Positions 1 through 22,158 of a stretch of DNA of 32,600 nt are shown here, in pieces; position 1 is the stretch's first letter; each line of letters starts with the position of its first letter. This stretch comes from a virus: IMG/VR virus record IMGVR_UViG_3300028920_000192, positions 1 to 32,600 of that record; one strand, written 5' to 3'. Made by a program: the position numbers and the translations under genes. The notes under the pieces are model-generated. The model had not been told where the DNA came from and did no database searches. It worked only from the letters and a program-made list of their open reading frames with translations.

Positions 1-1095
1 AACACCGGGAATTAAATTCAACCCTTCGATCACCTTATTAAATGCAAATCCGGAAACGATCACAACCTTTTCCATGAACGATGAAAATACTTTTAATATA
101 TCGATCCCCAACTTGCCAACGGCAACCAAAACATTCAATCCGAATTTCTTGATTTCATCCTGGTTTTCAACAACGGCATTCTTGATCGTTTCAACCGGTG
201 CTTTCAAGAAATCACTTAATGCCGATTCGGTTTCACCAACAAATGCCTTGACGTTCCCTGGTATATCCTTGAATGCTGTATTGACATTTTCCAACCAATC
301 ATTAATCGCCGGTAATGTTTTTTCGAGGATCGGAAGGAATTTCGATCCAAGGGTGATTGCAATATCCAATACACGTTCCCTGAATATCCGAATAAGATTT
401 GCACCTTGTTTGTTGGTTCGTGCAAAATCACCGATTGCATTTTTGGATTGATCCATTGCAATCTTCAATGTCAACATGGCCTTTTGTTGCCGGGTGATGT
501 TCTTTGCATCCATCCCTTCGGCCAATGCCCGGTTTTTAATATCCGTTTCGGTGATTGCAATACCCAACGATTTGATTGATTCCCGTTCCCCCAATAATGC
601 CTTTGTTAATGCCTGGGATGCACCTTCCGCACCACCGGAAAAATTCGTGAATGATGCCAAGTCAATAGCCAATTCATTCACTTGCTTTGACATTTCCAAA
701 GCCGATTCACCGGTGAATCCAAAACCGGTTAATAAATCGCCGGTATCACCCAATAATTTTTTTGCACTTACCGATGAAATGCCGAATGATTTGGCCATTG
801 TTTTGGCCGTTTTATCTGCTTGATCCGCAACATCCTTGAATACCGTTTCAAATTTTGAAATGGTTTCCTGGGCATCCAAGGCAACCTTCACCATCTTTGT
901 TAGCCCGGCAACCACCGCCCCACCGATCACCGATGCAATGGCCAAATATCCAACCTTTAATTTGGATAATATCCCACCTTGCTTTTTCAATTTGTCATTG
1001 GCTTTGCCGGTGCCCTTGGCAATTTCCTTCATGCCTTTTTTGAAATCCTTATCATCAAGGATCGCTTTGATGATCAATTTAATATCATCGGCCAT
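1..1095 (-). CDS. Tail tape measure protein, N-terminal part (runs off the left edge)
   Basis: The frame is open for 365 codons from an ATG at 1095 to the window edge without a stop, so the gene is partial. The product begins MADDIKLIIKAILDDKDF and has a short basic stretch, then a hydrophobic Ala/Gly/Val segment at about residues 48-70, then helical Lys/Ala/Asp-rich sequence with motifs such as KLLGDTGDLLTGFGFTG. This is the usual N-terminal pattern of phage tape measure and minor tail proteins, which set tail length inside the tail tube and help DNA entry. The start overlaps the upstream stop as TAATG, indicating translational coupling. Its place downstream of tail tube and assembly genes fits. 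The C-terminal part, where any lytic domain would sit, is outside the window. Confidence 0.88.
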   Translation of the reverse strand, partial: MADDIKLIIKAILDDKDFKKGMKEIAKGTGKANDKLKKQGGILSKLKVGYLAIASVIGGAVVAGLTKMVKVALDAQETISKFETVFKDVADQADKTAKTMAKSFGISSVSAKKLLGDTGDLLTGFGFTGESALEMSKQVNELAIDLASFTNFSGGAEGASQALTKALLGERESIKSLGIAITETDIKNRALAEGMDAKNITRQQKAMLTLKIAMDQSKNAIGDFARTNKQGANLIRIFRERVLDIAITLGSKFLPILEKTLPAINDWLENVNTAFKDIPGNVKAFVGETESALSDFLKAPVETIKNAVVENQDEIKKFGLNVLVAVGKLGIDILKVFSSFMEKVVIVSGFAFNKVIEGLNLIPGV

Positions 1096-1955: not shown

Positions 1956-2516
1956 TTATGATAACGGTTTTTTATCGATGATCAGATAGAAAAGATCACG
2001 TTTGCTATCAGAAATCGTATCATCCTGCAAAGCCCGAACCGTAACAGGAACATTCGCATAATCGCCCGGTGCCCCACTTGTCCAATCACCATTCGGAACA
2101 CAAATGGCATCACGGATTACCAACGTGATTCCCAAACCGTCACGGCCCTGGGATACAAAACGCCATTCGGCCAAGGCAAGGGCATTCGGATTCGATCCAC
2201 CGAAAGCATAAATGAAATTTGGATCACTTGTATCCAAATCAAGATTCCATGCAATCGATAAAACGTTGGGATCAAGCACTTGCATAAATGTAAATGATAC
2301 CGATAAATCAAATTTATCAATATCAACAACATACAAGGTTTGTGGCCCTTCGGTGTTATCGTACCATTCAACCAATTCAAGATTCGGCGAAATGGTTTTT
2401 TCGTTCCCCGTCTTTCCAACATATTGACGAACACCGGAAAGATCGGTATATACTTGCCAACTTGAACGCATGAAATATGATTTGTTGTTGCCCAACCAAT
2501 TATAAATGTTTCCCAT
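1956..2516 (-). CDS. Major tail tube protein
   Basis: This 186-residue, beta-rich protein is soluble and has no signal peptide. The sequence alternates hydrophobic strands with Asp/Asn turns (DKFDLSVSFTFMQVLDP, WRFVSQGRDGLGITLVIRDA), as in tail tube proteins that stack as hexameric rings around the tape measure. Its size, its order before the tape measure and the strong AAAGGGGG site ahead of the ATG fit a very abundant virion protein. The assignment comes from size, composition and position, not from a diagnostic motif. No contractile sheath gene lies beside it, which suggests a non-contractile tail. Confidence 0.65.
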   Translation of the reverse strand: MGNIYNWLGNNKSYFMRSSWQVYTDLSGVRQYVGKTGNEKTISPNLELVEWYDNTEGPQTLYVVDIDKFDLSVSFTFMQVLDPNVLSIAWNLDLDTSDPNFIYAFGGSNPNALALAEWRFVSQGRDGLGITLVIRDAICVPNGDWTSGAPGDYANVPVTVRALQDDTISDSKRDLFYLIIDKKPLS

Positions 2517-2529
2517 CGGTTTCCCCCTT

Positions 2530-3042
2530 TCATTTAATTTTACGAATTACAAAATCAATACTTGATGATTTATCATGTGGGATCGTATCAATTTGTTCCA
2601 TTTTGTATTTTATCTTTCCCCTTTCCATCAAACCCTGTAACATTCCTTCCATGAATGCCTTTCCCGTATCGGTTCGATGTGATGGGTTCCCCTTCGGATC
2701 GGAACATTTTGGATACCGACCCGATTGCATATCCGGCAAAAGTAAAATCATCAACCCATTGGGCTTGATTTTCTTCCACCATGCACAAAAAACATCGGGG
2801 ATGTTTTCAAAATCTTCCAAACAATGGGAAGAAAAAATGAAATCCAAAACCCCATCATTAAAAAATTCCAAATCCTTGCAATTCCATACTATTTGTGCCG
2901 AAGCATAACGCAAATCCGGTTGCACGTCAAGTGATAAAACATCCGGCGATAATCGGTTGGTTCCACAACCAACATCAATTCCATTCTTGAATCGGCCGTT
3001 TTCAATCATCCATTTGGATACACTTTCAAAATCGCTTTTCAT
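2530..3042 (-). CDS. SAM-dependent methyltransferase, last gene of the sugar cassette
   Basis: This is a small class I (Rossmann) methyltransferase of about 170 residues. Motif I is GIDVGCGTN near residues 21-29 of the chosen start. An acidic strand end (LSLDVQ) follows, then DFIFSSHCLEDFEN as the post-I/IV region, then NGLMILLLPD. The fold matches the Methyltransf_11 type that acts on small molecules, sugars or lipids. The ATG at 3042 has AGGGGGATCGG before it. An upstream ATG at 3087, overlapping the previous gene by 16 bp, is possible but has a poorer site. The substrate is unknown. Clustering with glycosyltransferases suggests O-methylation of a sugar. Confidence 0.72.
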   Translation of the reverse strand: MKSDFESVSKWMIENGRFKNGIDVGCGTNRLSPDVLSLDVQPDLRYASAQIVWNCKDLEFFNDGVLDFIFSSHCLEDFENIPDVFCAWWKKIKPNGLMILLLPDMQSGRYPKCSDPKGNPSHRTDTGKAFMEGMLQGLMERGKIKYKMEQIDTIPHDKSSSIDFVIRKIK

Positions 3043-3071
3043 CCGATCCCCCTGGTGGATTACATTTTGAT

Positions 3072-3602
3072 TCACTTTCGTTTCCATGCTAAAAGGTTGC
3101 TTCCTTTCTCGTTATGGTTGCCGATTATATCAACCGAAAATCCGTAATGCATTAAATCCGGCCCCGACCATTCCGATAAATGCCTTTCGTTTTCGTTTCC
3201 ATATTCCGGCCCTTGGGGATATGCACCGTGAGGGCATCCAAGGATCAACATTTTATTGGCATGATCTTCCAATTTTTCAAACGTCTTGATTGCTTCATCC
3301 CTGGCAACGTGTTCCGGCCCATGATACCAAACGATCAAATCATAATTCTTTTCGATCTTCACGGTTCGTATATCGGCACAAATGATATAATTGCATATAT
3401 CCTTTTTCTTCCAATATTCGGTGTTCGATTTAAAGATTTCGATTACATCAATCATATACTTTGCATCGGCAAAATCCTTGATAAACATGGATCGGAAACG
3501 ATTGATGCCGATATATAACACCGTTTTATAATTCAATACATCTGGGATGCACCGGATCAATTGATCATTCCGTTCCGTTTCGATTTCGTGTTCCGTTTTC
3601 AT
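3072..3602 (-). CDS. Divergent methyltransferase-like protein of the sugar cassette
   Basis: This 176-residue protein has the strand-helix rhythm of a Rossmann methyltransferase: KTVLYIGINRFRSMF in the motif I position, MIDVIEI as the second strand, ICADIRTV, then YDLIVWYHGPEHV as the fourth strand. The usual GxGxG loop is reduced to GINRF, so SAM binding may be altered or lost. The ATG at 3602 overlaps the upstream glycosyltransferase stop as ATGA. It may be an inactive partner of the neighbouring methyltransferase or a divergent enzyme. The fold call is moderate and the activity unknown. Confidence 0.55.
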   Translation of the reverse strand: MKTEHEIETERNDQLIRCIPDVLNYKTVLYIGINRFRSMFIKDFADAKYMIDVIEIFKSNTEYWKKKDICNYIICADIRTVKIEKNYDLIVWYHGPEHVARDEAIKTFEKLEDHANKMLILGCPHGAYPQGPEYGNENERHLSEWSGPDLMHYGFSVDIIGNHNEKGSNLLAWKRK

Positions 3603-4333
3603 TTGCATACCATCCAATATCGTTGTTTCAATCGTTCACGCATTTCCTTTTCACAACGGGCTTGCAACCCCGATGATTTATTATTGTGGGATGCCTGGCC
3701 CCCCCACCGGCGATATTTTGCCGATGTAATCCAAGGGATCGAAAGGCAATTGCATTCCATCAAGCATCGGATTTTGAAATCCCAATCTTCATTTGAATTC
3801 ATATAAAATTTCCCGATCCGATCATGGATCGATTTTCTCCAAAGCATCGTTTCCGTATATATCCGATCCGATTTCCATTCTTCCATTACATTCACCGGAA
3901 GGGCCGGAACGATCTTCATGGCCGATCCATCTTCACAAATATCCTGGGCCGAAGTCCATATCACTTCAATTTCATAATCGGCCCCCATCTTCCCCCGGTT
4001 GAAAAATTCAAAGACCGATACCCGGCTTGATATGCTTGCATGATTGAAAAATAAATCATCATCTTGCATAACACAAATCAAATCACCCTTGGCAAGATCA
4101 AGCCCATAATTATACGCCGATGAAATGCCACCATTCTTTTTCCGATGATATTGGATTGATGTTTCACGATTCTTGCAACGGAATTCGGAAATCATGCTTT
4201 CGGTGCCATCGGTTCCACCATCATCCACAATGATCATTTCCTTATTTTCATAATCTTGCATTAAAAAGGAATTGATCGTTTCCCGAAGCAACCCTTTCCG
4301 GTTATATGTTGGGGTGATCACCGAAACCTTCAT
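3599..4333 (-). CDS. Family 2 glycosyltransferase
   Basis: This 244-residue protein opens with the classic GT2 (GT-A fold) start MKVSVITPTYNRKGLL. It continues with IIVDDGGTDGT at about 34-44, which binds the nucleotide, and has CVMQDDDLFF at 88-96 with the DxD-like metal site. A typical acceptor-side region follows (AMLWRKS-like and NEDWDFKIRCL). It should move a sugar from an NDP-sugar to an acceptor in the cytoplasm. Start and stop overlap its neighbours by 4 bp on both sides, so it is tightly coupled within the cassette. Donor and acceptor cannot be read from the sequence. Confidence 0.9.
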   Translation of the reverse strand: MKVSVITPTYNRKGLLRETINSFLMQDYENKEMIIVDDGGTDGTESMISEFRCKNRETSIQYHRKKNGGISSAYNYGLDLAKGDLICVMQDDDLFFNHASISSRVSVFEFFNRGKMGADYEIEVIWTSAQDICEDGSAMKIVPALPVNVMEEWKSDRIYTETMLWRKSIHDRIGKFYMNSNEDWDFKIRCLMECNCLSIPWITSAKYRRWGGQASHNNKSSGLQARCEKEMRERLKQRYWMVCK

Positions 4334-5034
4334 GCCCTGGCCCCCTCATTCATCATCATTTCATATTGTGCCCATAAAATTCCGTAATCTTCCGGCATTT
4401 GCTCTTTCCCCGATTCCCGATCCGGCTTGTATATATAATGAAATATCCGAACATCGGAAACATCATCGGGCAATTCGGAAAGCAACGTATTATATTTTTG
4501 ATCCAATCCATTGATACATCCCTTGAATGCCTGGTTGTAAATCCATTGATCATGCCCGAATTCATTTTGCTTTTTATGGGTTTTCATCAAGGCATCATAA
4601 ATGAATTCACTTATTCCATCACGATCAATCACGATCACCCCGGCATTAAAACAATCACGCCGGATTTCATGCACCATCGATATATCATTCCCCGTTTTTG
4701 CCAATCCGGATATATCCCCAACAATCAATAAATCGGCATCAAGGAAGATCGTTTTTTTGAAATTATACATTCGGAATGCTTCGATGCTCCAATATTTCGG
4801 ATTCACCTTTTTATATTGCCCCATCCTTTCAACATCAACCAATCGGAATTCGGTTCCTGGATATATGTTCCGCAATTCCTTTTTCATATCGGCATCGAAA
4901 TCGGCATCATGGAATATATAAAAAGGTATGCTTCCGTTGGTGATCTTCCCGTTGGCAATAAGTGAATACAACATCACCCTTGCACAACGGAAATAATCGG
5001 CCGTAACAACGGATGCAAAGCAAAGATCATTCAT
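4330..5034 (-). CDS. Family 8 glycosyltransferase
   Basis: This 234-residue protein has the marks of GT8 (glycogenin and LPS galactosyl/glucosyltransferase) enzymes. These are MNDLCFASVVTADYF at the start, an arginine-containing helix (CARVMLYSL), FLDADLLIVGD with the DxD metal site at about 98-106, CFNAGVIVI near 128 and HDQWIYNQ later. These enzymes are retaining transferases that use UDP-sugars. The ATG at 5034 overlaps the upstream gene by 8 bp and begins exactly where homology begins. The longer open frame to 5172 would only add sequence that is a shadow of the upstream gene. It is somewhat shorter than LPS members. Confidence 0.87.
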   Translation of the reverse strand: MNDLCFASVVTADYFRCARVMLYSLIANGKITNGSIPFYIFHDADFDADMKKELRNIYPGTEFRLVDVERMGQYKKVNPKYWSIEAFRMYNFKKTIFLDADLLIVGDISGLAKTGNDISMVHEIRRDCFNAGVIVIDRDGISEFIYDALMKTHKKQNEFGHDQWIYNQAFKGCINGLDQKYNTLLSELPDDVSDVRIFHYIYKPDRESGKEQMPEDYGILWAQYEMMMNEGARA

Positions 5035-5719
5035 GCCCTGGCCCCCAAAATATCCGGCATAATTTATTCCGAATATCCATGTGCATCGTTTGATGGGAAA
5101 GCCCGATCCCGCATTCATCGATTTCCTTGATGGCCGGTTGGATATGTTCCGAAACAAAGCATGATCCAACATGGTTTGAAATGATCATATCATCCCCGTA
5201 TTTAATATCATCTTCCGAATACCCGTTGCATGAAAGGTTGAAAGGAATATCAAGCAACCATCCCGAATCGATAAATGAAAACCCGGTATTCACGAATTTT
5301 GCCGGGCCCGGCTCCACCCATCCGGAATCCTGATATGGTTTTTTCCAATCCTTTACATCATCGAAATCCTTGCCATTGATCCCCAATATGCTTGCTTCCG
5401 TATCTTTCATTTCCTGGATCAACTTGGCAAACAATTCCGGATCGGTGATCATCCTATCATCATCATTCCACCAAATGAAATCGGTTTGAACCATTCCAGA
5501 AAGCATTATACGTGGATGCATCCCAAAATTATGGGTGGAAAGCATATAAACATCGGCATCAACATCAACGATTTCGGATTTATCCAATCCGGCATTATCC
5601 CAAACCCAAACATTTGCCGGAATGGATTGCTTCCGAATGGCATCAACGATCATCGGGATATTTTTATCCCGATTGTAATTCAATATAATCGCCGTGATTC
5701 TATTTTTTACCTTTTCCAC
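5027..5719 (-). CDS. GT2-like glycosyltransferase with an NDDD site
   Basis: This protein of about 230 residues begins, from a GTG at 5719, with ITAIILNYNRDKN, a GT-A nucleotide-binding start. VWVWDNAG lies at about 37-44 in place of the usual VDDGS. FIWWNDDDRM at 81-90 is the probable DxD metal site. A loop with SGWLLDIPFN and GYSEDDIKYGDDM supplies further acidic residues, one probably the catalytic base. The GTG lies in a purine-rich stretch containing AAGG, overlaps the upstream methyltransferase by 20 bp and leaves the fold intact. An ATG at 5770 is less likely because no ribosome site precedes it. The exact start is uncertain. Confidence 0.78.
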   Translation of the reverse strand: MEKVKNRITAIILNYNRDKNIPMIVDAIRKQSIPANVWVWDNAGLDKSEIVDVDADVYMLSTHNFGMHPRIMLSGMVQTDFIWWNDDDRMITDPELFAKLIQEMKDTEASILGINGKDFDDVKDWKKPYQDSGWVEPGPAKFVNTGFSFIDSGWLLDIPFNLSCNGYSEDDIKYGDDMIISNHVGSCFVSEHIQPAIKEIDECGIGLSHQTMHMDIRNKLCRIFWGPGHE

Positions 5720-6329
5720 CCTTGGCCTTTTCCTTTTTCCTTGATATGAAAACCGTGATTTCTTCATCATCAATCGGGATCGTGATGCCGTTGCCGTTGG
5801 TAAATCCGGCATCCTTGATCATTTGGATATATACGTTTTTATCCCGTCTTTTCATATACGGAAGATCACCTTTCGCAACGGCCGTATTCACCCAAACAAT
5901 CAACCGGCCACCTGGATTCAACACCTTGGCAAAATCGGCAATGGTTTTTTCAACTGCTTCATCGTCAATATGTTGCAACGTTGATGCCGTGAATATAACA
6001 TCGGCTTTGCTCTTGGCCAACCCGGTTGCGGATTTGAATTCAACACCTTCCAAATCCCTATAAAATGCTTTGTTGGATTTGATCACGGCCGGAACAATAT
6101 CCATCCCAATATATTTTTTGGGCTTGAATGCTTGTAAAAGAAATGGCACCATCTTCCCAACCCCACAACCATAATCGATCACCGTTCCAACATGGATCGT
6201 TTCGTGATCAAGGGCATCATACACCTTGCCCAAGATACCTTGTGAAATGGGATCGATCTTCCGGATTGCTTCCGGATTCCCCAATAATGTTTGTGCATAC
6301 CTTTCACCAAAGAATTTTTTTGCATCCAT
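5700..6329 (-). CDS. SAM-dependent class I methyltransferase
   Basis: This 209-residue protein has a full class I methyltransferase core. Motif I is VIDYGCGVGK at about 50-59. The acidic motif II is YIGMDIVP at 73-80. ADVIFTASTLQHIDD carries motif IV with a histidine-containing loop, and NPGGRLIVWVNT is motif VI. It is of the small-molecule or sugar type, not DNA-modifying, since no DPPY or target domain is present. The ATG at 6329 follows GGGGGA. The open frame extends to 6422, but that part overlaps the upstream gene. A lysine-rich tail (KKEKAKGGKGKK) closes the protein and overlaps the next start. Confidence 0.85.
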   Translation of the reverse strand: MDAKKFFGERYAQTLLGNPEAIRKIDPISQGILGKVYDALDHETIHVGTVIDYGCGVGKMVPFLLQAFKPKKYIGMDIVPAVIKSNKAFYRDLEGVEFKSATGLAKSKADVIFTASTLQHIDDEAVEKTIADFAKVLNPGGRLIVWVNTAVAKGDLPYMKRRDKNVYIQMIKDAGFTNGNGITIPIDDEEITVFISRKKEKAKGGKGKK

Positions 6330-6339
6330 CGTGTTCCCC

Positions 6340-8148
6340 CTATGAATATATTTTTTTTGTTTCATGGTGCATCCTGGCCCATTTCTTTTCAAGGGCATCC
6401 CGGTTCTTTCCTTCGCATTCAAAATGGATTATATCCCGTTTGATTTTCACCGGTTCCGGTACGTTGTATGTTTGATGGTGGGGTGATCCAACGAATTTAA
6501 AACGCCGGTTCCATGTATAAAATCGTGGTTGCCAATCGGGATAATCCTTGATTTGCTTTTCGGGATCGTTAATATCATTGTAATATTTAAATGTTCGCCG
6601 TGATATTACCCCATATTCAATATTGCTTTCGGCCAACACCGGCAAATATTCGGATAATTCTCTTGAAAAACATTCATCCAAATCCATGATGATAATTCTT
6701 TCCCCATCCCTCACAAACGAACACGATATATTTCTTTGAAGGGCTTGCATATCATGGTAATTCGGATCATACTGGTTTACATAAACAAATGCACCGGCCT
6801 TTTCCAACATCGAAACCGTTTTATCGGTTGATCCACCATCAATTGCAATCACCTTTCCGATGGCCGGATTTTTCATCACCAATTCGATGAATCGGGGCAA
6901 ATTCTTTTCCTCATTTTGCACCATGATCGGCATTGTCAATTTTGCCCTAGGGTGGATGATCCCCGGTGCCTTGTTGCCCGGTGATTGCTGTATTGTTGGC
7001 CCTGGTTGCTTCCTGGTTGGCCCTGGTGGGGTTTTTGCCGGTTTGAAGGTGGAAAGACCCTTTGAAATGAAAATCCTTCGATCCTGGCCCGTATTCATCG
7101 ATGCAAGGGCATCATATATGGTTTGGGCCGGGATATTCATGCAAGGTGGGATAAAATCCTTGTTTGATCTCTTATTCCCATGCCGACAATCGGCCATGTG
7201 CTTCGATCCGCAACCGGCACAAGGCAATTCTGATTTATATATAATTCGGAATGGCCCTTTATAATAATGGGTTCGCAATTCCGGCTTGATGATCGAAAAG
7301 ATTGCAACGGTGGGAACGTGCATTGACATTCCAATATGCATCGGGCCCGAATCCACCGAAACCAATTTATCAAGATCACGAATCAACCGGATCATTTCCC
7401 GGCCAGTCAATTGCCCTTGCAAATCCATGATCCGTTTGTTTCGCCTGGGCTTCATATACCCATCCACCCCGATCAATACAACGATGGAATCCGAATCCTT
7501 TTCGATAATGCAATCAATCAATTCTTGCCATTTGGAAAATCGCCGGTAATCATGGGATGCATCACAAACCAAACCGATATATTTTTTGCCGGATTTCTTT
7601 TTCAAATACGGCTTTTCATCCTGGGTGAAATACAATCTTGGTTCCGGATCATCAAGGTTGACTTGAAATACCTGGTTGTAACAATCGGTTCGATGTTTGG
7701 TATCCCGATGGTTGCACGTTTCCGAATAATTCCGCAAATCTTCCCATGCATCATATTTCTTTAAATCTATATTGACGGACTCTTTAATATCCATCTTCAA
7801 ATTTTCGGCAAGATATGGGTTGTTTTCAAATATTTCTGGAAACCTGGAAAGCATCGATACATCCCGGTTCCCGTTGATGGCCAATTGACGGGCACAAGGT
7901 TCCACCATCAAGAGATCACCCAACCCGGCATCCCTTACAATCAATTGTTTCATATTCCGTTTTTCAAAATACTTTTCCGGATCGGGGATCACCGAAATGG
8001 TTACATATCTGGATTGTAAATCGATGGCCGACCTTCGGGGCACTTGCAACGGCACAAACGGTTTGAACGTGATCCATTTTTTCATTTCCTGGATACAAAT
8101 TTCAACGTCTTTTTCCGATTTGTTGACAACCCACAATTTCGGTTCCAT
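6340..8148 (-). CDS. Bifunctional glycosyltransferase: GT9-like domain fused to GT2 domain
   Basis: This 602-residue protein has three parts. Residues 1-65 form a small domain I do not recognise. Residues about 66-355 look like GT9 (ADP-heptose:LPS heptosyltransferase type), with VRDAGLGDLLMVEP near the start, KYIGLVCDASHDYRRF in the middle, SVDSGPMHIGMSMHVPT as the donor site, and a cysteine cluster (CAGC...C...C). A proline-rich linker at about 370-400 leads to a GT2 domain (402-602) with VIAIDGGSTDKT and IIIMDLDECFS. GT9 is GT-B and GT2 is GT-A, so two different sugar transfers are likely. It is the first gene of the cassette. Two adjacent ATGs exist (8151 and 8148); the second is better spaced from GGGGGG. 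Confidence 0.85.
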   Translation of the reverse strand: MEPKLWVVNKSEKDVEICIQEMKKWITFKPFVPLQVPRRSAIDLQSRYVTISVIPDPEKYFEKRNMKQLIVRDAGLGDLLMVEPCARQLAINGNRDVSMLSRFPEIFENNPYLAENLKMDIKESVNIDLKKYDAWEDLRNYSETCNHRDTKHRTDCYNQVFQVNLDDPEPRLYFTQDEKPYLKKKSGKKYIGLVCDASHDYRRFSKWQELIDCIIEKDSDSIVVLIGVDGYMKPRRNKRIMDLQGQLTGREMIRLIRDLDKLVSVDSGPMHIGMSMHVPTVAIFSIIKPELRTHYYKGPFRIIYKSELPCAGCGSKHMADCRHGNKRSNKDFIPPCMNIPAQTIYDALASMNTGQDRRIFISKGLSTFKPAKTPPGPTRKQPGPTIQQSPGNKAPGIIHPRAKLTMPIMVQNEEKNLPRFIELVMKNPAIGKVIAIDGGSTDKTVSMLEKAGAFVYVNQYDPNYHDMQALQRNISCSFVRDGERIIIMDLDECFSRELSEYLPVLAESNIEYGVISRRTFKYYNDINDPEKQIKDYPDWQPRFYTWNRRFKFVGSPHHQTYNVPEPVKIKRDIIHFECEGKNRDALEKKWARMHHETKKIYS

Positions 8149-8168
8149 CATTCCCCCCGTATGTTAAA

Positions 8169-8618
8169 TCAATAATCCGGTGTTCGATCTTCTAGCTGTC
8201 TCCACCGCACAACGACTTGACGGCCACGAAAAAATCGTTTCATGCTTTTATTTTCCCAATCGAAAGGTTGAATATCAACTCCCCATTCGTACCCGTCTTT
8301 TTGCCGGTTGGATTCTTTTTCCAAAACCGTTTTGACTTCATCCACCAAATCCAATATATCATCAAGGGCCGTTTCAATCTTCATCGATTGCACCGCCATT
8401 TCCAATATCACAATATACCAACGGGTTTGTGCATCGTTGGAATCATTACGTTCCAAATCTTCCCCACCATCATCAACGGCGATATAACCAAATCGATCCG
8501 TTGGGATTTCGGATGGATCGTTTTTCAATCCCTTCCAAACGGAAACGGCTTTCGTTATTTCGGCATTCGTGATGGCCGTTTCAAACATCGTTACCAAATT
8601 ATCAATTAAATCTTTCAT
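8169..8618 (-). CDS. Probable tail terminator or tail completion protein
   Basis: This 149-residue protein has an N-terminal helix (MKDLIDNLVTMFETAI), then strands containing RFGYIAVDDGGEDLER and QTRWYIVILEMAVQS, a long helix (DDILDLVDEVKTVLEKES) and a final strand pair ending VVVRWRQLEDRT. This order is typical of small tail terminator proteins (lambda gpU and HK97 gp10-like size class), which cap the tail at the head junction. The ATG at 8618 overlaps the gpG-like gene stop as ATGA. The role is inferred from size, fold pattern and position after the virion morphogenesis gene. Confidence 0.6.
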   Translation of the reverse strand: MKDLIDNLVTMFETAITNAEITKAVSVWKGLKNDPSEIPTDRFGYIAVDDGGEDLERNDSNDAQTRWYIVILEMAVQSMKIETALDDILDLVDEVKTVLEKESNRQKDGYEWGVDIQPFDWENKSMKRFFRGRQVVVRWRQLEDRTPDY

Positions 8619-9124
8619 GCAAATAATCCTTTCGCATACCAATTTCGGAATAATTTGGAATACCTGGCCCGATCCCTGGCATTGATCATCAATACATTTC
8701 GTTTCCTTCGCATGATCTTGCTTGCCAATTCATGCCTTGTGCCATATACCAATCGTTTCGTTGTAATACTGATTGCACCAAATGATTTCCGAAACAATCC
8801 GGATGCTTGCAATAATTTCGATTCACCCGAATATCGCCGGGCACCTGGTATGTAATTCCCCTGGTTGCCGGGCTTCCCTTTTTTATCGGTTCCATATCGG
8901 ATTCGCCATGTTCCGGCTTTCGTTTTCAAGGTTGACATTTTAAAGGGTTTCCATTTGCTTCGGCCATCCCTGGCCCCTTGTGTTCGGAATGTTAATTGGG
9001 CATCACGATCAATCATTTGGGAAAGCAAAGCCCAATATTGACGGGTTTTTTTGAAGGGTTTGGAAAGGAATTTACCGATTGCCTTTCCGGTATTCTTATC
9101 AAGGTTTATTGTTTTTCTGGCCAT
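8615..9124 (-). CDS. Mu gpG-like virion morphogenesis / tail completion protein
   Basis: This 169-residue basic protein carries the pattern of the phage virion morphogenesis family (Mu gpG). A helix with AQLTFRTQGARDGRSKWKPF is followed by TLKTKAGT, then SKLLQASGLFRKSFGAISIT, which is the hallmark 'L..tG.L..S' segment, then RLVYGTRHELASKIM. It joins heads to tails at the neck. It follows the gp36-like gene, as in Mu-type head modules, and overlaps the next gene by 4 bp. Confidence 0.78.
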   Translation of the reverse strand: MARKTINLDKNTGKAIGKFLSKPFKKTRQYWALLSQMIDRDAQLTFRTQGARDGRSKWKPFKMSTLKTKAGTWRIRYGTDKKGKPGNQGNYIPGARRYSGESKLLQASGLFRKSFGAISITTKRLVYGTRHELASKIMRRKRNVLMINARDRARYSKLFRNWYAKGLFA

Positions 9125-9735: not shown

Positions 9736-10650
9736 TTAAATTACGTTTGTAAGCAATTGGGCTTGGCCAACCGTCACAAGTAATTCATCGATGTTTTCGT
9801 AAATAACGTGAATCTTGCCCCGTTCCCTGGGAGCATTCACCGTTTGAATCTGATTCATCACCGTATAAGGTGAATACATAAAGGATCGGGATTCAAGGGT
9901 GGGTGATTCTTCGGCATAAAAAACCAAAACATCATCCCCCCAAAGCATTTCCTTCGCCGGATCACTTGCCGTTCCCTTCGCCGTGGAAAGCCCGGCAATA
10001 TCGGCAATCATGGGTTCCAAACCGATATTCCGTAATCCATCGATGGCCGAAAAAAGACCCTTTCCGAAACCAACGTTGGTATATTTAAAATATTCTTTCC
10101 ACTCGTCACAAAGGATCATCTGTAAAGCAACATCACCGGGAATCACGATTCGATTGGGCTCATCACCGGTACGGGCCCAAACAACACCTTTCGCCGTCAT
10201 AATATCGGCAACCGGTGTTCCCGTTGCCGGGGTTGCCCAACCTGCCCCGATGGCCGTTGATCCCACGATTGCGGAATTACCTGCGATTTGATGCACTCGC
10301 CATTCCCTGGCTTGTTGTTGTGCAATCTTTAATCGTTTGGTTGCTTCCTTATCGTAAGTGATCGGGGCATCGGCGTTTTCGGCCCTGCGAGCATTGACGT
10401 ATTTTTCAATTGAATATTCTTCGCATGAATACGTCCCTTCGGTAACATCCCATTGAATTTCCTTGGCAATTTCTCGACCGGAAACCTTGTTATCCCATAT
10501 CCGGTTTTGATCATCACCATAGATCACGTATTTATCGGCCGACCGTTTCACCTTGAAAGGTGGGGCAATAAAATCGGCAATAGGATTTCCCACTTTGGTT
10601 CGCGTGGCGAAATTCGTGAGAAATACATTTGTGTGGATTGTTTCACTCAT
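9736..10650 (-). CDS. Major capsid protein
   Basis: This 304-residue protein matches the Mu gpT-like / HK97-fold capsid type by size, place and sequence. It has an N-terminal arm (FLTNFATRTKVGNPIADFIAP), a strand with SADKYVIYGDD, a long spine-helix region around ITYDKEATKRLKIAQQQARE and an A-domain with NRIVIPGDVALQMILCDEW. Its C-terminal strands include VLVFYAEESPTLESRSFMYSP. It builds the icosahedral shell. It follows the decoration-like gene and scaffold, and has a strong GGAAGGGGGG ribosome site. It is probably the most abundant virion protein. Confidence 0.85.
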   Translation of the reverse strand: MSETIHTNVFLTNFATRTKVGNPIADFIAPPFKVKRSADKYVIYGDDQNRIWDNKVSGREIAKEIQWDVTEGTYSCEEYSIEKYVNARRAENADAPITYDKEATKRLKIAQQQAREWRVHQIAGNSAIVGSTAIGAGWATPATGTPVADIMTAKGVVWARTGDEPNRIVIPGDVALQMILCDEWKEYFKYTNVGFGKGLFSAIDGLRNIGLEPMIADIAGLSTAKGTASDPAKEMLWGDDVLVFYAEESPTLESRSFMYSPYTVMNQIQTVNAPRERGKIHVIYENIDELLVTVGQAQLLTNVI

Positions 10651-10668
10651 TACGTTATCCCCCCTTCC

Positions 10669-11073
10669 TTAATTCTTTTGATACGGTGAAACCATCCGGC
10701 ACGAAACCAAATGGTTTTGTGCATTGGATGCTTCCCTTGAAATCGCATGAACGTAATCACCGGATGCCGATGCCGAAACACGGCCCGATGCATCATTCAC
10801 CGATAATTCGATCCCGGCGTTGAATGATCCGTATGCCTTCAATTCAACAATACCTTCCAACCGTATTTCGGCCGTTTGCCCATCGGTTGGGGTATTAAGA
10901 AGAGCCCCGTAACAATTCACTCCCTGGCCGGAAGGTGCTTTCACCTTCATCGAACCGGATGCCTGGGCACTCATTTCCACAAGGCAATGTTGCAATGCGG
11001 AAAGGTCACCATCGGCCGGGCAAGAATCATCCATTAACTTTCGATATTTTGTACGATCACGGAAAATGGACAT
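10669..11073 (-). CDS. Capsid decoration-like protein (DUF2190-like)
   Basis: This 134-residue protein is rich in Gly, Ala and Ser with short beta strands. The segment GVNCYGALLNTPTDGQTAEIRLEGIVELKAYG and the following ELSVNDASGRVSASASGDYV resemble the small DUF2190-like proteins usually encoded between protease/scaffold and capsid, thought to bind the outer capsid surface. It starts at an ATG overlapping the protease/scaffold stop as TAATG, so the two are coupled. The family call rests on pattern and position. Confidence 0.6.
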   Translation of the reverse strand: MSIFRDRTKYRKLMDDSCPADGDLSALQHCLVEMSAQASGSMKVKAPSGQGVNCYGALLNTPTDGQTAEIRLEGIVELKAYGSFNAGIELSVNDASGRVSASASGDYVHAISREASNAQNHLVSCRMVSPYQKN

Positions 11074-12335: not shown

Positions 12336-13463
12336 TCACCAATAAAACGGTGTGCAATCCATCTTGGTTGTTGTTGCCCCTTGGGTATAATCAACTTTGA
12401 TCAAATCGGCTTCCGGTGTTGTTGATCCATCATCCGAATGCACAAGCATCCGGAACTTCAACGTGGATGCGGATACGGACAATGATCCGGCATTGGTATT
12501 TATATCGCTTGCCGTTGATGCCTGGGCATACGTACCATCGGAATTCACCCATGAACCACCATTCCAATATTTTTGTTGCCCATCCACTTCCACCGTATAT
12601 TTCAATTCATCCGATCCGGTTTTGGTTGCCGTTTCGGTGAATCCATCAAGTGATCCAACATTCATCACCGTTGTATTGAATACAACAACCGGATTATCGG
12701 TTGAATAATCCGTGTCGGCAATATCGGTGTAATCGGGAACATACGTTGCCCCATTATATAATTCGGCCGGTGTTATCACGATATTATCAATATAAAATTC
12801 GGGATCATTCCACAATCCCGAATTCGCCGGTGCCCCGAACCGAAGCAATCCAATACTTGAATCCCGATCCCGTGTTATTCCCCCTGTCCATACCTTTGTG
12901 CCGTCAATATATAAATTTACCCTATTGTTTGATCTTGAATATGTTACCGCAAATCGGTATTTGGTTCCCGATACCGGATCAAATGTTGCATTTAACATCG
13001 ATGATGCACCACCGGAACCGTTTTTATCCCTTGATACATAAATAAACGTATCGATGGCGGTTTGTCTCATACTCCATTCATTATCGGAATCGCCATCGGC
13101 TTTCGACATTGTGAATATAACACCGGCCGATGATGGTGCATGATCATATTGTGGGTAAAAATCAAATTCAATCGTCCATGCACCGGCCGTTCCATCAAGG
13201 TTCCCGGCACCGGCGTAATCCATCCACGTATTATTTGAATTCAATTGGAGTTTTCCGGAAGCAACAACCGGTGTTCCGGTTCCCGATCCCGTCAATACCC
13301 CATCACCCCACGATGCATTCACGTTGGTTGAATACCCGGCACCGAATATGGCATTGGCAACCCGAAGTGATTTCAAAGAACATTTCCCCCCGGTTATTTC
13401 AACCGATGCCGGGTATGTATAATTTCCCGGTGTTGTGAATGGGTAATTTTCAACGGATGCCAT
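12336..13463 (-). CDS. LamG/concanavalin-like virion surface protein
   Basis: This 375-residue beta-rich protein has few charged helices. Its middle part (about 85-230) fits a LamG / concanavalin A-like jelly roll: AGAWTIEFDFYPQYDHAPS, IFTMSKADGDSDNEWSMR, KYRFAVTYSRSNNRVNLYIDGTKVW and EFYIDNIVITPAELYNG. Such domains often bind sugars. The C-terminal part (about 260-375) is Thr/Ser-rich with repeated strands. It lies between head genes and the protease gene, so it may decorate the capsid rather than the tail. It has no signal peptide, as expected for a virion protein. Sugar binding is possible but unproven. Confidence 0.75.
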   Translation of the reverse strand: MASVENYPFTTPGNYTYPASVEITGGKCSLKSLRVANAIFGAGYSTNVNASWGDGVLTGSGTGTPVVASGKLQLNSNNTWMDYAGAGNLDGTAGAWTIEFDFYPQYDHAPSSAGVIFTMSKADGDSDNEWSMRQTAIDTFIYVSRDKNGSGGASSMLNATFDPVSGTKYRFAVTYSRSNNRVNLYIDGTKVWTGGITRDRDSSIGLLRFGAPANSGLWNDPEFYIDNIVITPAELYNGATYVPDYTDIADTDYSTDNPVVVFNTTVMNVGSLDGFTETATKTGSDELKYTVEVDGQQKYWNGGSWVNSDGTYAQASTASDINTNAGSLSVSASTLKFRMLVHSDDGSTTPEADLIKVDYTQGATTTKMDCTPFYW

Positions 13464-14140: not shown

Positions 14141-14265
14141 TTGCCATTCCTTCCCGTTGGTGCTTCCGATTTCGGTTCCGGCCGTTCTGATAGTTCCTTT
14201 GGTGGCATGGGAAAAAATAACACCACGAAAAGAAATAGCAACACGACAAATAATGCGCCGATCAT
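14137..14265 (-). CDS. 42-residue membrane peptide with proline-rich tail
   Basis: The ATG at 14265 overlaps the portal-MuF stop as ATGA. It encodes a peptide with a hydrophobic span at about residues 2-19 (GALFVVLLFLFVVLFF), followed by a Pro/Glu/Lys tail (PPKELSERPEPKSEAPTG). The membrane span plus hydrophilic tail recalls small holin- or spanin-like proteins, but no lipobox is present. It ends ATGA-coupled to the 31-residue peptide. Codon structure and the overlap chain support a real gene. Confidence 0.5.
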   Translation of the reverse strand: MIGALFVVLLFLFVVLFFPMPPKELSERPEPKSEAPTGRNGK

Positions 14266-16985
14266 CCACCAAATCCTTTCGCCGGTTTCCTGGCATCAAC
14301 CGGAACACCGGTGCCCCATGTTGGGAATTCTTTTTTATTCGTTTCCCAATTTTGAAACGGGCCCGATTCTCCATCTTCCCCAACCAATATCGAAACCAAT
14401 ATGGATCGGCAATTGAAATGGTTGGGTGGGTTGATCGTTCCAAGGGCCGGATCATCTTTTTTGATCACCTGGCCATCATGCTTCCGGCAAAATTCGGTTG
14501 TTACGTTGTCAAGAATGGCCTGGTATTGGAATGCATCCACAAACGGCCGGATGGAATCACTCATAAATTCATTCATCCTTCCGGTGTTGTATGAATCGGC
14601 CATGTTGGTTCGTGCAATCGTCAAGGCATATTGCTTTCGATCCCCTCTTAAATTTGTTTCGATCTTGGATATAATATCCCTGGCAACGGTTCCCGATCTT
14701 ATACCTTCGGAAATGGTATTTTGAACGATCTTCAAAATCCTTTCTTCCGTTTCCCCGGTGATGAAAAATGCCCGTTCCCGTAATGTTCGCAAATAGGAAA
14801 TATCTTCCTTGGATAATTTTTCACCCCGTCTTTCAAGGTATCCATCGATCCATTCACGGTTCAACCATTCATCTTCATCTTGGAACGTGGCCGGTTCCCC
14901 CTTGAATGCTTTGATGGCATCGGGCAACCTGGATTTCACTTCATCGAATGCATCAACCTTGCCCGTCAAATACATCTTGGCATAAAATTGTGAAAGCATC
15001 TTTTTCAATTCCGTTTTCTTCACCCGTAATTTTTTTAGCCCGGCCAAATCCTTGTTTTCGATTATCTTTTTTCGTTCCACTTGCTTCACAAGGGAAATGG
15101 ATTCGGCACCGTGAATTTCGTTGTAATCTCTCACGAAATCATTTTCATATCCGTTGAATTTTTTATCCAATTCCTTAAAATTCACCGGGTAATTCGATCC
15201 GATTTTCATTCCGGCCCTTGGCCCTTGGCCTGGCTTCCAACCTGGCATCGTTCTGCCGGTTCCCCTGGGGGGAAGATCATCAACCGGTTTTTCCCCTGGC
15301 ATGATCGGTTCCCCGTTGGGCAATACCGGTGGGGTTTTCGGTGCCTTGCCGTTGCCATCCTTCACCGGATCAAGCATTCTTGCAATTCGTTCCGGCTTGA
15401 TCGGGAATCCTGATTGTATAATTTCCGTTGCCGATTGAACCGGAAGCAATCCGGATGCAACCTTTTCGATCACCCCAACAAGGGCCGTGATTTGTGCCCC
15501 GTTCATTGCTTCGGCCGGATCAACCACCTTGGTTCCTTCCGATCCACCGTTGTTTTCATCCCCGGCCGATTCTTCACCCGTTGGCATCGGGGTTGTTTCA
15601 TCTTCACCATCGTTGGCCCGGCTTTCATCCAATTCCCTTTTTTCATCTTCCGATATTTCGGGAACACCGGTATATTGTCTTATCCATTTTTCCCCTGGAT
15701 CAATAACCTTATTCATTATCAACATATTCAACATTTCTTTTTCAATCCTTTTATCAATCTTTTCAAATCGCCATTCCGGATATGATTCAACGTTGGCAAA
15801 ATTCAAATCCACCATCGTTTTGATCATGGGGTTAACCGTATCTTCCAACCGTCCATGCAAATCTTTCAAGATCATCATTAAAATATCGAATTGTTTTTGC
15901 CCAAGGTTATATGATCCGGAATCACTTTCCGAAAAGCCCAATTTATCGGGAATCAATAATTTCCTGGTGATTTGTTTATCGATTTGATCAATTGCCTTTT
16001 CGTGCCCATCGGTTCCTTTCGATGTTCCGGCATCCCTGAAATCGATATTGAATTTGCCGATCAATTCACCGGATTTCTTATCCCGTTTCCCTGGGACGAA
16101 CACGAACATATTTGCCTGGAAATTTTTAAGCATTTCTTCCATAGCTTCCAATTCTTCATCATCGGTTATATCTTTATCATACGTAACAATTGGAATTGGA
16201 TTGCCGTAATTTTGCAAATACATATTCCGGTATCGTTGAATATGATATTTGGAATAATATTGCATAAAGATTTCCTTCAAATCCGATTCGCCGTAATAAT
16301 TTCCATCCTTCAAATATGGATTCACGTATATAATGAATTTTGTGTTTACGTCCTTCGCTTCCACGATCCTTTCATGCCCGTAATCACGGCCAATCACGAT
16401 CCGTTTGATATAACCATAATCATCATATTCATAATCAAAGTATATGGGATGCATGAATTTAATATTTTTGATCACCCACTTGGCATCCACCATTCGCCAA
16501 ATCAATTCCCCCGGCCTGTGCCCGTATGCCATTCCATCCAAAAGGTTATCGAATACATCCCACCATCGAACCGGTGTTTTCGCAACATCCCCGGCTTCCA
16601 TGTTGTAAAAATTCCGTTCCACAAAATCCCTTATATCCAAATCCCGTTGATCCTGGCTTCCCGAAACGAATTCACCGTTGACGGATAAAACCATTTTCTT
16701 TTTCATATTCAAAACCATAGAGATTCGATCATCCATCATCATTACATCATAAAATCTTAAATCCTTGCCCTTTTCTTCCAAGAATTTATCGGGATTGATC
16801 AACGGGGATTCGGCACCGGATGCATAATCCATTTCCTTTTCCAATACATCACGGCTTTTCCCTTGCATGGTTTCAAGGATCGGTTTGAATATATCCTTGA
16901 TCGATTTCCTGGGTATCGATTTAATTGCCGATGGCCTGGCCCGTCTTTGTCTTTCTTTTAATCTCATTCGTTGTTTTCGATTCAT
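14262..16985 (-). CDS. Portal protein (Mu gp29-like, DUF935) fused to a MuF minor head domain
   Basis: This 907-residue protein joins two virion parts. The N-terminal part (about 30-480) is portal: FYDVMMMDDRISMVLNMKKK, DVFDNLLDGMAYGHRPGELIW, KFIIYVNPYLKDGNYYGESDL and IDKQITRKLLIPDKLGFSES all follow the gp29/DUF935 pattern. An acidic/Pro-rich linker with a helical region follows. The C-terminal 170 residues match the Mu gpF / SPP1 gp7 fold: LTIARTNMADSYNTGRMNEF, EFCRKHDGQVI and NPPNHFNCRS. Portal and MuF are separate proteins in Mu. The portal forms the DNA channel and MuF is a few-copy internal head protein. The start overlaps the TerL stop by 4 bp. Confidence 0.87.
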   Translation of the reverse strand: MNRKQRMRLKERQRRARPSAIKSIPRKSIKDIFKPILETMQGKSRDVLEKEMDYASGAESPLINPDKFLEEKGKDLRFYDVMMMDDRISMVLNMKKKMVLSVNGEFVSGSQDQRDLDIRDFVERNFYNMEAGDVAKTPVRWWDVFDNLLDGMAYGHRPGELIWRMVDAKWVIKNIKFMHPIYFDYEYDDYGYIKRIVIGRDYGHERIVEAKDVNTKFIIYVNPYLKDGNYYGESDLKEIFMQYYSKYHIQRYRNMYLQNYGNPIPIVTYDKDITDDEELEAMEEMLKNFQANMFVFVPGKRDKKSGELIGKFNIDFRDAGTSKGTDGHEKAIDQIDKQITRKLLIPDKLGFSESDSGSYNLGQKQFDILMMILKDLHGRLEDTVNPMIKTMVDLNFANVESYPEWRFEKIDKRIEKEMLNMLIMNKVIDPGEKWIRQYTGVPEISEDEKRELDESRANDGEDETTPMPTGEESAGDENNGGSEGTKVVDPAEAMNGAQITALVGVIEKVASGLLPVQSATEIIQSGFPIKPERIARMLDPVKDGNGKAPKTPPVLPNGEPIMPGEKPVDDLPPRGTGRTMPGWKPGQGPRAGMKIGSNYPVNFKELDKKFNGYENDFVRDYNEIHGAESISLVKQVERKKIIENKDLAGLKKLRVKKTELKKMLSQFYAKMYLTGKVDAFDEVKSRLPDAIKAFKGEPATFQDEDEWLNREWIDGYLERRGEKLSKEDISYLRTLRERAFFITGETEERILKIVQNTISEGIRSGTVARDIISKIETNLRGDRKQYALTIARTNMADSYNTGRMNEFMSDSIRPFVDAFQYQAILDNVTTEFCRKHDGQVIKKDDPALGTINPPNHFNCRSILVSILVGEDGESGPFQNWETNKKEFPTWGTGVPVDARKPAKGFGG

Positions 16986-18487
16986 GTTGTTATATCCCTT
17001 TTCTGGAATCGCATTCGATCCGATTTCTCAAAACGGAAATCGTTTCGGCAAGCATCAAACCCACCGGATATTGAATCAACAATATCATCATGCTTGCCCG
17101 ATGGGAATGCAGTTAATTCATCAATAAAAATATCGTTCCAATCACCTTTCACGATAAACAAATGCCCGGCTTCCACGGCCGGTTCCCATTCGGATACCCT
17201 CACCCTTTTATCTTTTGACACCGTGATTTTTTCAACCGATTTGATCCCATCAAATACTTCATCCATTAAATCGAATGTATCCTTATACCCGGCAACGGCT
17301 TCGATCCCCAACCTGGTATCCGGTGGATCGATCTTGGCTTGTTGAATCATCTTCCGGTTTCGTTCCGGTGCCTTGGCCCTGAATCGTTTTACATCCTTGA
17401 TATAAATATGGGGTATTCGCATTTTGATTTCATCGTTGAATTCCCACCGAATACCCATCAACGTTCCCACCGTATAATCTGGATCATCCTTATCCAATTC
17501 TTTTTCCGTTGATGCCAAATCCCAAATCCGAATATATGAAATATCATCCGGTGCTTCATCGATCACCTGGATCATATCCGTTTTTAATATGTTCCCACCC
17601 TTGGCCACCGGGTTGCATTGCATAAGTGATGCCGTTCCATACGATCCCAAGGTTGCCCGTTGCTCATTATACCATTTGATCGAATATCTTTCGGGGAATA
17701 AAACGCCGGATTCATATTCATCCGAAAATGCCGGTAGGGTGATCCGATCAAACCTGGGGAATTCATCGTTGACTTGCATTTCATTTTCGATACGGCCAAT
17801 AAGATCATCCACGTTCCACGGTGTTGCATCGATGATCGTAATTGACGTTGGGCCTCGCCTGGTTAAAAATACATCTTTCAACCATTGCCATTGGTGATCA
17901 CGAACCAAATGGCTTTCGGCATCCTTCCGGTTTTTCAAGAAATCATCGATGATCCCAAGGTTGTATCCCTTGCCAGTTACCCCACCACCGATCCCGGTGA
18001 AATGGGCTTCACCCAAATAATCGGGTTGCACTTGGGAAGCACTTGCTATTTTCCAATTTTGAACATTATGGGCATCGTGTTTCAATCCAATATCGGGGTA
18101 TAATCTTTTGAATCGATCCGTATTCAAAACATTATCCCTGGCAAACCTGGAAATAATGTTTGCAAATTCGGCCGAATAGGTTGCACAAAGTATTTCGGCA
18201 TTCGGATATTCACCCATGAAATGCGGAACGAAATAACGGGGGATGGCATCGGTTTTTCCATGCCGGAAAGGGATGGTGATGATCAAGAATGTTGAAATGC
18301 CATGCCCATATCGTTCCACCGCCTTATCAAGGGCATCACAAATCATCCTGGTATGCAACCCAACGATCAACGGTTCCGGCTTGGCCCAACAATATTGCAT
18401 AAAATCAAGGTGGAATCGCCGGGCCAATTCGGCATCGGCATCCACGTTAATCAAATCGTTAATGCTGACCGTTTCCACCGTTGCCAT
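16982..18487 (-). CDS. Terminase large subunit (Mu gp28-like)
   Basis: This 501-residue protein has an ATPase half with a variant Walker A, PFRHGKTD at about 73-80. Walker B is YNLGIIDD (Asp 181/182), followed by a coupling region (TSITIIDATPWNVDD). The nuclease half has RIWDLAST (Asp near 323), GIEAVAGYKD (Glu near 396) and FPSGKHDDIVDS (Asp near 467), which form the RNase H-like metal site. It cuts and pumps DNA into proheads at the portal. The start overlaps TerS by 29 bp, and the stop overlaps the portal start as ATGA. All catalytic residues look intact. Confidence 0.92.
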   Translation of the reverse strand: MATVETVSINDLINVDADAELARRFHLDFMQYCWAKPEPLIVGLHTRMICDALDKAVERYGHGISTFLIITIPFRHGKTDAIPRYFVPHFMGEYPNAEILCATYSAEFANIISRFARDNVLNTDRFKRLYPDIGLKHDAHNVQNWKIASASQVQPDYLGEAHFTGIGGGVTGKGYNLGIIDDFLKNRKDAESHLVRDHQWQWLKDVFLTRRGPTSITIIDATPWNVDDLIGRIENEMQVNDEFPRFDRITLPAFSDEYESGVLFPERYSIKWYNEQRATLGSYGTASLMQCNPVAKGGNILKTDMIQVIDEAPDDISYIRIWDLASTEKELDKDDPDYTVGTLMGIRWEFNDEIKMRIPHIYIKDVKRFRAKAPERNRKMIQQAKIDPPDTRLGIEAVAGYKDTFDLMDEVFDGIKSVEKITVSKDKRVRVSEWEPAVEAGHLFIVKGDWNDIFIDELTAFPSGKHDDIVDSISGGFDACRNDFRFEKSDRMRFQKRDITT

Positions 18488-21006: not shown

Positions 21007-22158
21007 TTATTTTAAATTATATAATGGCATATCACCTTTGATCCTTGCTTTCGATATTTCAAAATATTCTTTTTCCTTTTCGATCCCGATAAAATTAAAC
21101 CCTTCACGTATTGCACCGATCCCGGTTGATCCGCTTCCCATGAATGGATCAAGGACGGTTCCCCCGGCCGGGGTTATCATCTTGCATAAATAACGCATCA
21201 ATTTAACCGGTTTTACCGTTGGGTGATTATTATTCTCCCCCCTCTCCCGCCTTGAAGGCTTTGCTACATAAAAGAATCGGGATGCACCGCCCTCGTCAAC
21301 ATATCCGCGAACACTATCACTTCCTTTTATTCTTTTCCCCTTCGCCCGTCCGTAATTATTACCGCGATAATCTGTCAATTCGCCACGGCTTGTTTTTACC
21401 GATACCGTTTTCCCACTCTGTCGATCCAGTTCCTTTACAGGGCATCCGTCAACACAATTCCAGTTCTCCACCGTTTCGGTTCCCATGTGTTTTTCCGGGC
21501 CATAAATCCCCGCCTTGCATTGCCCGAATTTTTTAGATGCCGTTTTTATCTCCTTCGGGAAATGGCCCGTTCCCTTCACCTTCTTCACCCCGACACACTC
21601 GCAGTCAGGATGATGGCTCAATACTAAGTTAGCGGGGAAACGGCCCGTTGGTACTTTTATTTTCCCTTCCGAATATGCCTTTTTCTGTCCATCTGATATA
21701 CGACATTGATCAAAATTGACTCGCCCCGTTCCATATTTTTCAACATTCTTATTTATGTTTTTTTCGGTGATCGGTTTTCTTGCTAATATCCAATCTTCGT
21801 GTGCCGGTTTTAATCCTTCCGGTTTCGGGAATCCTGTTCCGAATATATGCATTACAATATCCCGCACTTCAAAACCGGCGTTTTCGATTGCCGTTGCCGT
21901 CCAATGGCTTGTGCGGGGAATCGCCCAACATAATAAATGCCCCCCCGGTTTTAATATCCGCAAGCATTCCCGCATGATCGATTCCATCCATGCAATCCAT
22001 TGATCCCTTCCCCCCTTGTCCTTGTCCCAATCCTTCCCCATGAAAGAAATCCCTGCCGGTGGATCGGTAACAATTGCATCAACTGAAAAATCCAAGATCA
22101 ACTTTAATTGCTTTTCGCTTGCCCCGTTTATGAGCTTTAACTTTTCGCTTTTTGGCAA
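21007..22158 (-). CDS. DNA methyltransferase (beta-class, N4-cytosine/N6-adenine type)
   Basis: This 383-residue protein has motif IV first (AIVTDPPAGISFMGKDW, Asp 32-Ala 35; DPPA in place of DPPY) and motif I near the end (DPFMGSGSTG at about 337-346), the order of beta-class amino-methyltransferases. Between them lies a family-typical insert with GRFPANLVLSHHPDCECVG, a Cys set, CPVKELDRQSGKT and ASRFFYVAKPSRRERGE. HPTVKPVKLMRYLC leads into motif I. It should modify DNA, probably to evade host restriction. A TTG start follows AAAGGGGG. Base use in the middle (about 21226-21725) differs from both ends. Confidence 0.87.
   Translation of the reverse strand: MPKSEKLKLINGASEKQLKLILDFSVDAIVTDPPAGISFMGKDWDKDKGGRDQWIAWMESIMRECLRILKPGGHLLCWAIPRTSHWTATAIENAGFEVRDIVMHIFGTGFPKPEGLKPAHEDWILARKPITEKNINKNVEKYGTGRVNFDQCRISDGQKKAYSEGKIKVPTGRFPANLVLSHHPDCECVGVKKVKGTGHFPKEIKTASKKFGQCKAGIYGPEKHMGTETVENWNCVDGCPVKELDRQSGKTVSVKTSRGELTDYRGNNYGRAKGKRIKGSDSVRGYVDEGGASRFFYVAKPSRRERGENNNHPTVKPVKLMRYLCKMITPAGGTVLDPFMGSGSTGIGAIREGFNFIGIEKEKEYFEISKARIKGDMPLYNLK

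Follow-up and report, generated by a model that had tools for sequence, protein, structure and literature searches.

A Putative Virion-Glycan Locus in the Structural Operon

We analyzed a 32.6-kb stretch of viral DNA (positions 1 to 32,600 of the IMG/VR virus record IMGVR_UViG_3300028920_000192; hereafter, the window), an apparent fragment in which the record end falls inside the tape measure gene. Seven consecutive genes of its structural operon, here named g1 to g7, probably form a virion-glycan locus, whose products would attach a methylated glycan to a structural protein, the tail tube and the major capsid protein being the likeliest acceptors. The observations pointing to this role are the gene content, the catalytic motifs, the lack of membrane spans, the coupled reading frames, a site and cassette ends that a sister phage conserves, and homologous GT9, GT2, GT8, and methyltransferase parts that recur in virion modules of phages unrelated to this one.

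All seven open reading frames (ORFs) are present on the minus strand, from about position 8151 to position 2530, and embed five transfer domains; the tightly overlapping run and the number of domains reported in an earlier note on this DNA were therefore both correct according to the ORFs and the Pfam searches. The starts were picked on the basis of the ribosome-binding site and of the overlap with the neighboring gene. Adjacent frames overlap or lie at most about 20 bases apart, as would be expected in the case of translational coupling.

The first gene, g1 (6340..8151, with the ribosome-binding site GGGGGG), codes for a protein of 603 residues in which a GT9 glycosyltransferase (GT) domain (residues ~134–298; PF01075, 46.1 bits, cut-off 22 bits) is fused to a GT2 domain (residues ~410–539; PF00535, 26.1 bits, cut-off 23.3 bits). 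The latter weakly matches GmaR, which we take to be a flagellin glycosyltransferase; this match is consistent with a protein acceptor, without being a test of one. The g4 gene (4330..5034) codes for a GT8 enzyme with a DAD motif (PF01501, 43.4 bits) and weak matches to glycogenin and to a Skp1 galactosyltransferase, and g5 (3599..4333, with a 4-base overlap with the g4 stop) codes for a GT2 enzyme (PF00535, 90.5 bits) that is 38% identical to its orthologue in the sister phage L016, described below. These are the assignments (GT9-GT2 fusion, GT8, and GT2) that the earlier note had proposed, all of them above the Pfam cut-offs.

The "GT2-like" label that it had given to g3 (5027..5770, start uncertain, either 5770 or 5719) stands only in part: the protein is a GT-A enzyme with a DDD motif, but it scores under the Pfam cut-offs for both GT2 (20.9 bits) and GT64 (PF09258, 16.8 bits, cut-off 21.3 bits). 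Since its L016 orthologue (36–39% identical) passes the GT64 cut-off with 33.3 bits, g3 is better named GT64-like. An AlphaFold2 model of g3, built from a two-row alignment, had a pLDDT of 37 and was not used. DxD-type motifs are retained in the GT2, GT8, and GT64-like domains, those of the g1 C-terminal GT2 domain and of g5 being DLD and DDD. No membrane spans were found in the cassette proteins, where no 19-residue Kyte–Doolittle window exceeds 1.33.

Of the three methyltransferase-like proteins of the earlier note, two were confirmed. The products of g2 (5700..6329, 209 residues from the ATG at 6329, with the ribosome-binding site AGGGGGAA) and of g7 (2530..3087, the last gene of the cassette) are class I S-adenosylmethionine (SAM) methyltransferases, with a profile over the cut-off and a glycine-rich motif I. 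The former scores about 46 bits with Methyltransf_25/11/12 (5.6e-12 for Methyltransf_25) and the latter 28.8 bits with Methyltransf_11, so that g1 (GT9 and GT2), g2, g4, g5, and g7 are all over the curated Pfam cut-offs. The AlphaFold2 model of g7 (pLDDT 89.5) has small-molecule methyltransferases as its best Foldseek matches; for this protein, the structure search suggested in the earlier note indicated the kind of enzyme but did not name a substrate, many small-molecule class I methyltransferases being retrieved with similar scores. The third protein, g6 (3072..3602), had no Pfam hit. Its tblastn relatives, which adjoin GTs in other phages, are phage class I methyltransferases, and the homology lies mainly outside motif I. 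In that position g6 has YIGINRF where its relatives carry a DIGCGxG-type motif, and thus it has neither the profile nor the glycine-rich motif I of the class; because of this replacement, its activity is doubtful.

Conservation of the Cassette in a Sister Phage

Scanning with an alignment of the g7 family retrieved L016, which is part of a 42.3-kb record of a sister phage. L016 and the window share one gene order for the portal, protease, decoration protein, capsid, three neck proteins, tube, and tape measure, with 34–57% identity. A counterpart of the cassette sits between the same two flanking genes: g1 comes first (approximately 52–55% identical over the full length) and g7 last (49%), and the interior includes the counterparts of g3, g5, and g4 plus at least six other enzymes. 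The added genes include a GT6, a radical-SAM protein, and two methyltransferases; the radical-SAM protein and the GT6 enzyme correspond to L016 positions 4397–5455 and 6953–7600. The cassette ends thus equal the structural genes in conservation, in contrast to a middle that varies in content and order. The search for the same gene order proposed in the earlier note was accordingly answered for the site and the ends, but not for the interior, whose order is not identical. The lineage of the window has only two members with the cassette region.

Recurrence in Unrelated Uncultured Phages

Neither g1 nor g4, when scanned singly against viral contigs, gave any hit, L016 having been reached only through the g7-family alignment, and tblastn searches of phages with g1, g3, and g4 were negative as well. 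Homologous enzymes are nevertheless found together in L017, part of an 86-kb record, whose capsid and tail genes show no detectable homology to those of the window. The L017 cassette lies between genes in the connector position and those for tail completion, tube, and tape measure, and it comprises a GT4-GT9 fusion, a GT2 (29% identical to the GT2 half of g1), another GT-like protein, a methyltransferase, a methyltransferase-GT8 fusion (the GT8 part 37% identical to g4), and a g7 homologue (34%). Moreover, in L053 and L034 a GT9 and a g7-type methyltransferase directly precede the head–tail adaptor and tail completion genes. Inspection by eye of the L034 cassette also revealed a glutamyl-tRNA-synthetase-like protein and a mannose-6-phosphate-isomerase-type cupin (1631–2593 and 10577–10963).

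The identity of the site and ends in L016 and the presence of homologous enzymes at an equivalent place in L017 support, at the level of gene comparison, the cassette being one co-inherited set. The possibility, considered in the earlier note, that the genes are passengers with no conserved co-occurrence fails for the same reason, as the enzymes are retained together in both phages.

We then considered the viral loci that carry a g7-type methyltransferase, 80 in all. The enzyme is fused to a GT9-type domain in 44 of them, and a GT9 lies within 1.5 kb in 10 more. A structural gene is present within 5 kb in 48 of these 54 GT9-associated loci, with the major capsid gene upstream in 44; clustering at 90% gives 38 groups. 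The structural seeds were partly drawn from the surveyed loci themselves, and for this reason the fact that structural genes were not seen near the cyanophage-type members is no evidence. These data contradict, for uncultured phages, the earlier statement that tail modules rarely carry such genes.

The methyltransferase-GT9 fusions, both halves of which were confirmed by Pfam in the representatives L065 and L037, lie between the major capsid and the head-closure or virion structural genes (L065, 6522–8105; L037, 9661–11331; L070, 9953–11524; L020, 9920–11710; and about 40 more loci), and the aligned proteins are 37–48% identical to that of L037. The order capsid-then-fusion, preceded by the portal where the contig reaches it, also occurs in contigs that binning places with genomes of Magnetococcales, Halobacteriovorax, and Acidobacteriaceae, an assignment that is uncertain for phage contigs. 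A search of 50,697 phage records did not retrieve the fusion, and only its methyltransferase half gave matches. In the g7 tree, the sequences from the window, L016, and L017 group in a clade of their own (SH-aLRT 96), which is not nested in the GT9-fused clade, and several branches are long; for these reasons, we do not claim a single origin for all the virion-module copies.

In some of these loci, small decoration-like proteins, rich in Ser/Thr and apparently paralogous to one another, are encoded in runs between the major capsid and the methyltransferase-GT9 genes (L020, 7122–8714; L044, 2678–3824; L070, 5409–7238), and they are possible glycan acceptors. The Ser/Thr content of the ORFs in this interval is 0.168 versus 0.124 for the other ORFs (p = 0.0018), a difference that is a mere hint at the acceptor because the statistic is uncorrected for relatedness.

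A Possible Pathway and Its Alternatives

On these bases, the following scenario can be depicted. The soluble cytosolic GTs (GT9, two GT2, GT8, and GT64-like) encoded within the structural operon would use host nucleotide-sugars during late expression and assemble a short glycan on a co-produced structural protein, most likely the tail tube or the major capsid protein; the two intact methyltransferases (g2 and g7) would then O-methylate sugars of the glycan, as the third domain of the chlorovirus A064R protein does on the Vp54 glycan. Soluble enzymes encoded among virion genes would most simply act on virion proteins, and the virion target, already favored by the earlier note, is still the best reading, given that the site in the structural operon is kept in L016 and has its equivalent in L017. 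The same note had listed the LamG protein among the targets. This now appears unlikely as a dedicated role, since the cassette is present in L016 and no LamG homologue was found in the L016 record. We infer the late co-expression, the protein acceptor, the identity of the sugars, the O-methylation, and the methyl site, as well as the advantage to the phage, which might be shielding or a tuning of host range or adsorption.

Some points speak against this scenario. The phage is uncultured, so that the glycan is a prediction, and late co-transcription is deduced from the gene order. Furthermore, neither the capsid nor the tube is obviously enriched in Ser/Thr (S+T 0.12 and 0.14), and BLASTP revealed no recognizable homology of the cassette enzymes to those of the Corndog-type phages, discussed below. 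Lastly, GT9 enzymes classically act on the lipopolysaccharide (LPS) core, which makes a host target possible.

This last point leads to host-surface remodeling, in which LPS core or capsule sugars would be extended or methylated to block superinfection or free the progeny, as in seroconverting phages. GT9 belongs to the heptosyltransferase family, whose members work on the LPS core at the cytosolic face without membrane spans; in addition, g5 weakly matches GtrB-like PHROGs, and the cyanophage relatives of g7 are located in polysaccharide-type clusters. However, the GtrABC seroconversion systems of temperate phages, which share GT2-type enzymes with the cassette, need membrane-bound glucosyl-carrier enzymes and a flippase, and neither a GtrABC-type membrane-embedded GT nor a flippase was found in the cassette by Pfam and hydropathy. 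A position in the virion module, kept across unrelated phages, is not required by such a role either, and we consider it unlikely.

The different content and order of the middle genes in the window and L016, together with the degenerate SAM motif of g6, might instead suggest a loose collection of moron genes, that is, enzymes with different targets or in decay that do not make up a single pathway. At least five of the seven genes, though, are common to L016, with intact motifs, tight coupling, and the same site and ends, and the unrelated L017 keeps homologous enzymes together even though they are recombined, so that a loose collection is improbable. DNA hypermodification, with the GTs glycosylating modified bases and the methyltransferases acting further on them, is very unlikely: phage GTs are known to do so (Pyle et al. 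2024, as cited in PMC12619734), but the cassette lies in the structural operon rather than beside the replication genes, small-molecule methyltransferases are the nearest matches of the g7 model, and no thymidylate-synthase-like or base-hydroxymethylation gene was found among the scanned window proteins or, by eye, in the sister record, which is weak evidence as the window is a fragment and both records may be incomplete.

Organization of the Window

The main genes of the window all lie on the minus strand, in the order small and large terminase, portal-Mu F-like fusion, LamG-like protein, protease, decoration/scaffold-like protein, and capsid, followed downstream by the neck genes, the seven-gene run, the positional tail tube gene, one more gene, and the tape measure gene. 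Profile searches confirmed the terminase, portal, and capsid upstream of the cassette and the tape measure downstream of it. The major capsid protein, a candidate glycan acceptor, is encoded at 9736..10650 (phrog_1005, 8.7e-27), and the N-terminal part of the tape measure protein, cut by the record end, at 1..1095 (phrog_1535, 6e-18).

The tail-completion and tail-tube genes named in the earlier note as flanks of the cassette are assigned by position only, as no profile names these two neighbors or their L016 orthologues. The neck/tail-completion gene (8169..8642) has a 45% identical L016 orthologue that also flanks the cassette; the tail tube gene (1956..2516), two genes before the tape measure, has a 54% identical orthologue in the same place.

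As for the other genes, the portal protein and a Mu F-like head morphogenesis domain share a single ORF of 907 residues (14262–16985). The LamG-like protein (12336–13463), between portal and protease, owes its name to the earlier note and has no profile hit. The portal and capsid genes match those of the relatives L016 and L003, and in L016 the match runs on to the tape measure. The large terminase of the window (16982–18487, compared with L096/L003) is instead unmatched in L016, which has a different protein, and differs from that of the relatives L016/L003, which points to a terminase swap. A tRNA-Gln gene (TTG anticodon) is located at 22205–22277, and the replication part encodes an ArdC-like antirestriction protein at 31289–32104 as well as a DNA methylase (N6_N4_Mtase) at 21007–22158.

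A Wider Class of Loci

The window might be one of a widespread and undescribed class of phage "glycotype" loci, a tentative idea to which we give somewhat less than even chances. Such loci would have a core of GT9 and g7-type methyltransferase, often fused, in the virion operon by the capsid or tail tube, with the intervening genes exchanged as in bacterial O-antigen loci and related phages wearing different methylated glycans. If this were true for many uncultured phages, the sugar-coating of particles would be a common trait, missed since the records of named phages lack GT9-methyltransferase genes. This, in turn, would have consequences for adsorption, for immune recognition, and for the way in which phages diversify, and a defined gene set is at hand for testing it.

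Comparison with Known Systems

In the phage Phrappuccino, gp142–145 are three GTs followed by a class I methyltransferase, and gp145 is homologous to g6 (30% over 76 residues, 1.7e-9); these genes lie among hypothetical genes and, unlike the window cassette, not in a virion module.

The A064R protein of chlorovirus PBCV-1 combines two rhamnosyltransferases with a methyltransferase for the terminal rhamnose of the Vp54 capsid glycan, for whose synthesis the virus encodes its own enzymes, working outside the secretory pathway of the host (PMC7019647). It resembles the cassette in joining GT domains with a methyltransferase, a likeness in chemistry. Unlike the window, the chlorovirus is a eukaryotic algal virus whose glycan is N-linked and not encoded in a phage structural operon.

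The closest studied analogue is the locus of Corndog-type mycobacteriophages (cluster O: Firecracker, Catdawg, and YungJamal), where an O-methyltransferase gene and three GT genes form an overlapping run inside the structural operon, which likewise in the window embeds GTs and methyltransferases. The virion glycosylation reports that we found for tailed phages concern mycobacteriophages, and PMC12363180, PMC11600133, and PMC12619734 (citing Freeman et al. 2023) report that phage GTs glycosylate the capsid and tail tube in Corndog and other mycobacteriophages; hence, the undescribed system supposed in the earlier note is not supported. The two loci differ in site (between portal and capsid protease in the Corndog type, between neck and tail tube in the window) and in content, the former having four genes, with no GT9 annotated, and an actinobacterial host, and the latter seven genes. 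BLASTP of g1–g7 against Firecracker gp33–36 gave no significant match and, given this lack of recognizable homology, the window cassette would work like the Corndog-type locus but is not counted as the same locus. Four features are new here: a core of GT9 and methyltransferase, a larger cassette whose interior varies, a site adjoining the tail tube, and the spread of this core among uncultured phages.

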